From: Lachnospiraceae bacterium | Lineage (GTDB): Bacteria > Bacillota > Clostridia > Lachnospirales > Lachnospiraceae | Reading direction: 5' to 3' | Assembly (NCBI GenBank): GCA_021205755.1 | Contig: JAJPWX010000042.1 | Span: forward strand, 1-64,000 | DNA: 64,000 bases | In this document: positions 54,563 to 57,500 of the stretch, piece by piece | Layout of the letters: each line of letters starts with the position of its first letter | Numbering within the stretch: the first letter of the stretch is position 1 | Made by a program: the position numbers and the translations under genes | The notes under the pieces: generated by a model | Database searches by the model: none | The model's input: only the letters and a program-made list of their open reading frames with translations | Told to the model about the DNA's origin: nothing

Positions 54563-57500
54563 ATGACTGAGTTTGATTACAGCAAAGTGAAAGATCCGAA
54601 TTATTTTGAAGGGAATCGTCTGGAGGCACATTCGGATCATGCTTTTTTTGCATCCGGAGATGAGATGAAGAGCGGGAGAAACCATCTGGTTTACTCGTTG
54701 AATGGATTTTGGAAATTTTCTTACGCGAGAAATTATCAGAATGCAGTGAAAAGTGCAGACAATTGTGAAAGCTGGGAGGATATCCGCGTGCCGGCGCATA
54801 TCCAGATGGAGGGATATGGCGTGCCGCAGTACGTGAACACGCAGTATCCGTGGGATGGGCGTGATGAGGTTTCACCCGGCGAGATTCCAGAGGAATTTAA
54901 CCCGGTTGGAACTTATGTAAAGTATTTTACATTGCCGCCTGCAATGGCTGGCAAGCGCGTATTTGTATCCTTTCAGGGAGCTGAGAGCGGGCTGGCCATC
55001 TGGCTGAATGGGCAATACATCGGATACAGTGAGGACAGCTTTACCCCGGTGGAGTTTGAACTGACGCCCTGGCTGATGGAAGAGGGCGGTTTAAATAAGC
55101 TTGCCGTTCAGGTCTTTAAATGGACTTCGAGCAGTTGGTGTGAGGATCAGGACTTCTTCCGATTCTCCGGGCTTTTCCGCGAGGTATATCTGTACGCGGT
55201 TCCGAAGGTACACGCGCAGGATATCCGCGTGCGCACGCTGCTGGACGACAATTATAGAGATGCAGACCTGGAAGTAGCTCTGAAGGTATGGGGCAGCGGT
55301 AGCGTTCGGGTAAGTCTGTTGGAGGAGAGTGCTGCGGTATGTGCGACAGCTGTGGAAACGCCCCCTCGCTGCGCGTCGGCGGCAGGTCGCAGCCGCGATG
55401 AGAAGAATGCTGCGCATTGCGCGGCTGCTACATACAATATACATCGTAACGGTGCCGGGGAAATGGAAGGGGAAGAAACGTCTGCGAGTGAGCTCCTATT
55501 TTCGCTGCATGTTGCCGCCCCGCAGCTTTGGAGTGCGGAGCATCCGAATCTCTATACGCTTTTGCTGGAAATGCTGGATGAAAATGGCAAAGTGGTCGAG
55601 GTGATTCGCCAGAACGTAGGCTTCCGCCGTTTTGAAATGAAGGATGGCATGATGCATATAAACGGAAAACGGATTGTTTTCCGCGGCGTGGATCGTCATG
55701 ACTTTAGCTCCAAATACGGGCGCGCAGTGACATATGAGGAGACTGAGCAGGACATTATTACCATGAAGCGCCACAATATCAACGCAATCCGTACCAGCCA
55801 CTATCCAAACCACTCATTTTTGTATGACCTCTGCGATCGGTATGGACTGTATCTGATTGATGAGACGAACCTGGAGTCGCATGGTACCTGGTGTGCCTAT
55901 TTTCAGGGAACGGTCGGCCTGGACTATGTGGTTCCGGGCGATCATGAGGAGTGGATGGGCGCGATGCTGGATCGGGTAAATTCGATCTTTCAGCGTGACA
56001 AGAACCATCCGTCGATCCTGATCTGGTCTTGCGGCAATGAAGCGTTTGGCGGAAAGGTGATTTATGAGATGTCGCAGTTGTTCCGCCGCCTGGATCCGAC
56101 ACGGCTGGTGCACTACGAGGGTATATTCAATGACCGGCGTTACAATGGCACGAGCGACATGGAGAGTCAGATGTACACGCCGGCAGAAGATATCCGGGAA
56201 TTTTTGAAAAAGGATCGCAGCAAGCCGTTTATCTGCTGCGAATATATGCACGCGATGGGAAATTCCTGCGGCGCGATGCAGAAATATACCGACCTGACCG
56301 AGGAGGAGCCGCTGTATCAGGGCGGATTTATCTGGGACTACATCGATCAGTCGATTACGAAAAAAGACCGTTATGGCATGCCGTTTGAGGCATATGGCGG
56401 AGATTTTGACGAGCGGCCGAACGATTCAAACTTCAGCGGCAACGGCATCGTATACGGCGGCGACCGTAAGCCTTCTCCGAAGATGCAGACAGTAAAGTTT
56501 TATTATCAGGATATCCGGGTTTTCCCATCCGAGACACAGGTGCGGGTGAAAAACCTGAGTCTGTTTACAGATACGGCAGAGTATGACTGCGTCATGTCTC
56601 TGGCGCGTGATGGGCGTCCGGTTTGTGAAGTACATATGGAACTGGCGGTGCCGCCGCTTTCCGAGAAGACCTTTGATCTGCCGTTTGAGGGGATAGCCTC
56701 TCGAAGTGCAGCGGCAGATTGCAGCTGCGATGAAACGAATGCTGCGCATGATGTGGGAACAGATTCGATACCAGGCATTTGCCGGAATGAGCCGGGTGTG
56801 TCCTGCGAATATACCGTGACCGTATCTTTCTGCCTCAAAAAAGATACTCTGTGGGCAAAACGCGGCCATGAGGTCGCTTTTGGACAATATGTTTATGGAA
56901 AATGTGAGACTGCGCGGCTGGATACCTCTGGATATGCGGCTTCCATGGCCGATTGCTGCCGCATGGCGGATGGCGCAATCCGGCTGTCGGCGGCTGGTAT
57001 TGGAGGATATTCTCGCTGCGCATCGGCAGAAACACCTCTTACGGTTATACATGGCCAGGACAACGTTGGTGTGCGCGGCGCACACTTTGACGCTTTGTTT
57101 GCCAATCAGATCGGCCTGACCTCTTACCGTGTCGGGGGCAAAGAGATGTTGAAGACCAGTCCGCAGCCGGATTTCTGGCGCGGTCTGACCGACAATGACA
57201 ATGGAGCAAATGCAGCTGTCCGTTACGGCCAGTGGAAGCTTGCCAGTCTCTATGTAAGCGTGAAGAATCCAACGGAGCAAAGAGATCCGCGTCAGATTCC
57301 GCTGAGACTGGAGGAGTATGAGGATCATGTGGTGATTCGTTATACTTATTGGATGCCAATGCAGCCGGTGGCGTCCTGTGAAATGGAATATACCGTGTAT
57401 GGAGACGGCACCATTCAGGTGCGGCTTCACTATGATCCGGTTAAGGGAATTACCGAGATGCCGCTCTTTGGCGTGACGATGAAGATCGACGCGGATTACG

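Follow-up and report, generated by a model that had tools for sequence, protein, structure and literature searches.

Palindromic insertions within genes have been described in Rickettsia and in several further bacteria. Rickettsia palindromic elements (RPEs), as presented in passages of a MITE review, are palindromic repeats of about 150 bp that lie in frame in unrelated genes and encode a conserved peptide; the same passages treat other cases of palindromic elements building proteins as conceivable (PMC10969869). REPs measure 20 to 40 bp, and intragenic REPs tagged with GTAG or CGTC are described, in excerpts of the same paper, as hairpins within coding genes, more than half of them dimers or groups that add 20 to 30 residues (PMC3733652). 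In the main text of that paper, the word stems "Clostridi" and "Firmicutes" occur 0 times. In PARCELs, according to the part of the source consulted, dyad-symmetric DNA encodes 25 residues, and tandem arrays of an amphipathic motif lie in open reading frames (ORFs) without assigned functions (PMC2996958).

Among the papers listed by our literature searches, none, judging by title, reported in-frame palindromic inserts from Clostridia. The first-pass annotation of the locus described here knew of no such element in Clostridia; to this we add that the family is listed in Rfam as the GA-cis RNA (RF02987). In the literature searched, we found no description of GA-cis as a mobile or translated repeat. 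The family reportedly goes back to a 2017 paper. We conclude, with high confidence, that the inserts described below are a dispersed palindromic element of 75 to 78 bases (GA-cis, RF02987), a hairpin whose copies arise at new places, are kept in genes when they preserve the frame, are predicted to be read there as loops, and then duplicate, take up further palindromic elements and decay.

Palindromic inserts in lacZ

The window, that is, the whole stretch of 64,000 nucleotides analyzed (C26:1-64000), belongs to genome G000, here called the own genome. The features found in it are listed in Table 1. The first-pass annotation had reported two 43-base segments of lacZ (55379-55421 and 56711-56753) repeated in the same reading frame. 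They are identical at 35 of 43 positions with an offset of 1,332 bases (0 modulo 3), and the next best 43-base self-match of lacZ, over all self-offsets of at least 43, reaches 26 positions. Both arms of the stem reported in copy 1 were recovered. The repeat is real, but the 43-base bounds were too short: copy 1 extends over about 55353-55429 and includes a 5′ head (TGGAAACGCCCCCTCGC..). The earlier observation is thus confirmed, with an extent larger than first stated. The third fragment is likewise present, in frame with the head of copy 1; it gave no match with covariance model R1, and its case consists of the shared head bases and the frame. A core at 53371 that had been called related scored 7.1 bits with R1 (E 4.6), which is not significant. 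Neither of the findings named beforehand as counting against the repeat (the same residues encoded by unrelated DNA; no further copies in the genome) refutes the reading.

Table 1. Features of the window that belong to or host the palindromic element
Feature	Position	Strand	Remarks
lacZ (GH2 beta-galactosidase), 1149 aa, host gene	54563..58012	+	Pfam Glyco_hydro_2_N, _2, _2_C, LacZ_4, Bgal_small_N
Copy 1, complete GA-cis (RF02987) palindromic element	55350..55432	-	48.7 bits vs cut-off 34.7
Left arm, outer stem of copy 1, GCAGCCGCG	55389..55397	.	
Right arm, outer stem of copy 1, CGCGGCTGC	55420..55428	.	
Copy 2, decayed, hairpin part only, second LacZ insert	56676..56774	-	26.6 bits, E 4e-5, model R1
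Third fragment CTCGCTGCGCATCGGCAG, probable remnant of element head	57012..57029	+	15 bases in common with consensus head; frame as copy 1
Further decayed copy	43435..43526	+	33.5 bits, E 6.8e-7, model R1; outside long reading frames

Copy 1 covers model positions 1-88 of the 88 in RF02987 (E 2.4e-8). The name GA-cis suggests a position upstream of a gene; copy 1 instead sits within lacZ and runs against it. The modelled strand of copy 1 is the minus strand, and its plus strand would be read as part of LacZ, at about aa 267-291; the core of copy 2 corresponds to about aa 717-731. With R1, built from 22 copies of the own genome with copy 1 itself among them, copy 1 scores 74.2 bits. The longest ORF spanning the decayed copy at 43435-43526 is 135 aa.

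The best-scoring solved relatives of LacZ are the 6sd0/6s6z chains, and in a phmmer comparison with 6sd0 both insert regions fall between aligned blocks. In an AlphaFold model of LacZ, residues 256-307 and 715-746, which lie between beta strands, have pLDDT below 50, as do 74-111, 612-625, 781-817 and 1048-1077; the mean pLDDT of the model is a middling 71.7, from a 30-sequence alignment of relatives that lack these inserts. Because the model is middling, the alignment is without the inserts, and the insert-free, conserved segment 74-111 also falls below 50, low pLDDT is weak evidence of disorder. Across 25 genomes, LacZ length (1007 to 1325 residues) rises with copy number (rho 0.86), although these are not 25 independent points because the species are related. 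LacZ has 1007-1117 residues in genomes with fewer than 8 copies and 1097-1325 in those with at least 8, and the two groups overlap.

Anatomy and distribution of the element

Read in the direction of lacZ, a copy consists of TGGAAACGCCCCCTCGC, a loop and GCTCGGCGGCAGGTCG, followed by a hairpin and usually T. Within this larger hairpin, AACGCTTCGCGTT is an example of the inner part; the outer stem measures about 8-11 bp. The other strand of the head, as we read it, can fold as a small hairpin with two tandem G-A pairs, and RNAalifold drew pairs around both of them. Stems were analyzed in 87 copies, of which 22 are from the own genome (21 over the cut-off and one more) and 65 from relatives; the latter are 65 of 79 matches in 58 stretches, with 14 weaker or cut ones left out. 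Because these stretches were picked from the best-scoring genus matches, and some of their copies are orthologous, they form a sample that is not random and whose members are not independent. An RNAalifold consensus on a MAFFT alignment was rejected as a picture of the stem: as the variable arms are misaligned, it does not show the outer stem. For the same reason R1 lacks the outer stem, and the stem was therefore counted by script.

In the 82 copies parsed, the outer stem is perfect over 8 bp in 69, has 7 of 8 pairs in 6, and fewer in 7. Among the 75 copies with 7 or 8 pairs (orthologous copies included), 51 left-arm sequences are distinct, and at stem positions 2 to 8 every one of the four Watson-Crick pair types occurs. 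When left arms were dealt among copies, 8 of 8 bases paired in 2.1%, compared with the 69 of 82 observed. Because intermediates are rare, the arms appear to be renewed together, by selection or by palindrome correction. Perfect stems can also arise through palindrome correction during replication. Copying of the stem from the target was rejected as a general rule, the stem being absent (by eye) from the empty sites at lacZ "DPV" and C99:32787. Hints in its direction are that the right arm at C52:67650 repeats sequence also present in empty relatives and that Shine-Dalgarno repeats occur at copies in other genera. In 66 of the 87 copies (21 were dropped by the parser), a matching hairpin half was scored just upstream; it was found in 14, mostly as tandem units, versus 2.8% with shuffled partners.

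The own genome holds 21 RF02987 matches over the cut-off of 34.7 and 35 at E values up to 10. The search for further copies thus succeeded, both inside and outside long reading frames. Within the genus, which was scanned with stricter filters than the own genome, 23 of 47 genomes have a match over the cut-off (24 of 47 at an E value of 0.001 or less), and single genomes have as many as 62 matches. In a family sample, 29 of 397 genomes had matches, as did 26 of 334 genera; the class sample gave 4 of 391 genomes, all four of the same family (Lachnospiraceae). IMG/VR contained 0 exact matches to one 24-base head pattern, a weak test of viral carriage.

Other repeats accompany GA-cis at some loci. 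It lies within a larger intergenic repeat at L226 and L243 (G038), L227 and L244 (G042), and L222 (G039), where about 160-250 bases align between loci. A second palindromic family (..GATATCCCGCC-GAA-GGGCGAGGATGCCACCCGGCGAGGGC..) is nested in GA-cis heads at L355, L106, L280 and L126 (by eye), is free-standing in L059, and keeps the frame in lacZ of G021. A third (CTCCG..CGGTCGGCGCTAAACG-hairpin-CAGCGCC) is nested in GA-cis at L105, L283, L316 and L412 and free-standing in L313, L264 and L061, all by eye.

The surroundings of GA-cis differ between this genus and other genera. For other genera we used 35 of 37 matches, leaving out one duplicate place and one cut copy. A Shine-Dalgarno-like motif is present at the 5′ end of 28 of these 35 copies versus 2 of 87 in the genus, and within 40 bases downstream of 24/35 versus 5/87. 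A Shine-Dalgarno sequence with the ATG of an ORF of at least 60 aa follows the copy in 17/35 versus 1/87, and an internal Shine-Dalgarno sequence plus ATG opens a frame, mostly short, in 26/35 versus 7/87. The internal frames of other genera (L422-L451) begin, for example, MNEVHI, MRSIY or MTKS. The Rfam consensus of RF02987 itself starts gagAGGAGG. CGTC forms the four bases before the stem in 10 of 10 copies from other genera (the best-scoring copy in each of ten genomes) and in 0 of 22 aligned own copies (by eye). Judged by its position, GA-cis seems to have shifted to a different setting in the genus.

Empty sites and open reading frames

LacZ was found in 32 of 47 genomes; 30 loci were fetched and 25 aligned, with G022, G025, G029, G032 and G039 left out. 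Alignment with close relatives bore out the claim that the inserts are extra, some close orthologues being without them. Copy 1 is missing from G015 and G020, and G015 is one of the two nearest genomes by LacZ identity (segments at 96-98%). Its hairpin is partly kept in G019; the copy is present in G009 and also in G021, there with a second palindrome nested in it. By eye, the place of copy 2 holds two units in G009 and G015; G019 and G020 have a single unit there, and in G021 hardly anything of it is left. LacZ of G021 carries a 26-residue insert after VRLHYDPV, a site that is empty in all 24 other aligned orthologues, and a second insert after DGRDEVAP, where 18 others, including the five nearest, are empty and 6 have inserts of their own. 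In the DNA, both are clean 78-base in-frame insertions.

Filled and empty sites were found at other genes as well. At C99:32787, 78 bases are absent from G019 and G020 and 90 from G021. At C52:62825 (an ABC transporter), 75 bases are absent from G037, G038, G039 and G042 and 69 from G015 and G019, and further genomes have other insert lengths. At C52:67650 (a rhamnosidase), 78 bases are absent from G009 and G019; these empty forms may be deletions between direct repeats. Inserts are duplicated in tandem in G009 and G019. The number of duplicated target bases varies by site (about 2, 3 and 12, by eye), and since these lengths differ there is no single transposition signature.

Raw counts for the own genome place 20 of 30 fetched copies within a spanning ORF of 250 aa or more, and 16 of 21 when only copies over the cut-off are considered. 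By strand, these longest spanning ORFs number 10 and 10. Pfam domains were found in every one of the 17 ORF stretches scanned, namely LacZ and 16 others; two pairs of stretches seem to be parts of one gene each. Inserts fall inside domains (rhamnosidase 6-hairpin, peptidase M3, Fic and two LacZ domains) and also in linkers, for example, of a response regulator and ABC transporters. A codon-usage test was possible for the 41 copies with coding-like flanks on both sides, the other 46 of 87 being unscored: 33 of the 41 are in frame versus one third expected (P = 8e-10), 7 scored as frameshifted, and 1 is in phase with a stop. One conserved peptide was not found among own and relatives' copies, the inserts being read in several frames and on both strands. 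Among relatives (L366-L421), the modelled GA-cis strand is the coding strand in 20 of 23 in-frame copies, versus the even division in the own genome.

Some in-gene copies are strongly conserved. In an AAA-ATPase-like gene, the orthologous in-frame GA-cis differs very little between four genomes (L380, L381, L387 and L408). The insert in this gene is identical at 77 of 77 bases where the flanks have 88% identity and at 73 to 74 of 77 where they have 72 to 81%; the lacZ insert shared by G000 and G009 is identical at 78 of 78 bases with flanks at 90%. Other orthologous inserts are conserved equally to or less than their flanks (e.g., 64 of 75 at 93%). Over six orthologue sets the picture is mixed, and insert conservation as a general sign of function was dropped. 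Gene conversion, transfer or selection could account for the inserts that are better conserved than their flanks.

Origin of the inserts and comparison with known systems

Observations in support of a mobile palindromic element are the repeat family, its presence or absence in related genomes, the bias towards in-frame copies, covarying stems, copies in tandem or nested, and low-confidence loops in the structure model. The element combines a conserved head (able, on the minus strand, to form a small hairpin with tandem G-A pairs) with a larger hairpin whose copy-specific outer stem is nearly always fully paired. In our model, new copies would presumably be made via single-stranded hairpin DNA and some enzyme. 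A copy that lands in a gene would survive if it is a multiple of three bases, has no stop and falls in a tolerant loop or linker; the open frames suggest translation of such inserts into an additional loop of about 26 residues. Inserts would later duplicate in tandem, take up further palindromic elements and decay. Their peptides would be nearly neutral; inserts more conserved than their flanks are not what neutral decay predicts.

GA-cis could instead be a functional structured RNA, cis-regulatory or antisense, with in-gene copies kept for the RNA and translation a by-product. Rfam lists RF02987 as an RNA, and in other genera it sits just before start codons, most copies having the downstream Shine-Dalgarno-like motif. 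The extreme covariation of the stem fits a conserved RNA, but perfect stems may also stem from palindrome correction. For one orthologous in-gene copy, conservation greatly exceeds that of the flanks, and the modelled strand prevails as coding strand among relatives' in-frame copies; the own copies, however, lie in unrelated genes, are evenly divided by ORF strand, come and go between close relatives, and are nested and in tandem. We regard a conserved RNA function as an unlikely explanation for the inserts. The least probable account, which we consider very unlikely, is that these are ordinary hypervariable loops formed by local slippage and duplication with no mobile element: relatives' LacZ loops do differ in length and content at the same sites and tandem units are common, but the element is dispersed as clean insertions in many unrelated genes and outside genes, which rules out slippage as the sole cause.

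What moves the element was also considered. It may be a non-autonomous relative of REPs moved by an IS200/IS605-type (RAYT) transposase, an origin that we think improbable. Like REPs, it forms a hairpin with a short unpaired tag, and the CGTC that precedes the stem in other genera is, in the portion of the REP study consulted, the tag of CGTC REPs, including RPE-4 and RPE-6 (PMC3733652). At the stem foot of the own copies this CGTC is absent. A Y1 transposase match was present in 11 of 18 genomes with at least 8 copies and in 13 of 29 others (P = 0.37), a few of these being fragmentary matches, and the genomes with 50 and 55 GA-cis matches, although drafts, gave no Y1 match. IS200/RAYT is not favored as the mobilizer, as Y1 presence shows no correlation with copy number in these genomes. 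With respect to MITE criteria, the duplication length is inconsistent between sites, and the parent transposon was looked for as Y1 only.

A mobile palindromic element of this kind would bear on how far such elements build protein segments beyond Rickettsia and a few intragenic-REP groups. The genus makes the question testable: its genomes carry up to dozens of copies, close species differ in having or lacking an insert, and enzymes such as beta-galactosidase are easily assayed. Our results suggest that the GA-cis Rfam family merits re-reading and that loop lengths in the genus are partly set by a DNA repeat. A bolder version, possible but held tentatively, sees GA-cis in other Lachnospiraceae as a mobile hairpin located at ribosome-binding sites, where it brings a Shine-Dalgarno-like motif and in many cases a short reading frame of its own; in a single genus it would have shed these signals and entered coding genes, surviving there as translated loops. 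Its stem arms would be renewed together, and many copies would therefore have their own perfect palindrome and hence their own peptide. If true, a family listed in Rfam as RNA would diversify proteins and be, in Clostridia, what the CGTC-type repeats are in Rickettsia.

Compared with the Rfam family, copy 1 scores above the cut-off and shares the two-hairpin layout and the head, whereas the Shine-Dalgarno-type start is mostly lost here and many copies lie inside genes. With REPs, GA-cis shares hairpins in coding genes and, in other genera, the CGTC before the stem; it differs in having a second hairpin with tandem G-A pairs, and the tag is absent in the own genome. PARCELs resemble it as dyad-symmetric DNA encoding a peptide, of 25 residues in their case, whereas GA-cis occurs mostly as single inserts in known enzymes. 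The first-pass annotation had likened the lacZ pattern to RPEs. The likeness is supported for behavior; GA-cis differs in having 75-78 bases and no common peptide, and in being read in several frames and on both strands. Family membership left aside, GA-cis resembles RPEs in what it does, that is, in placing a palindromic repeat in frame within unrelated coding genes.
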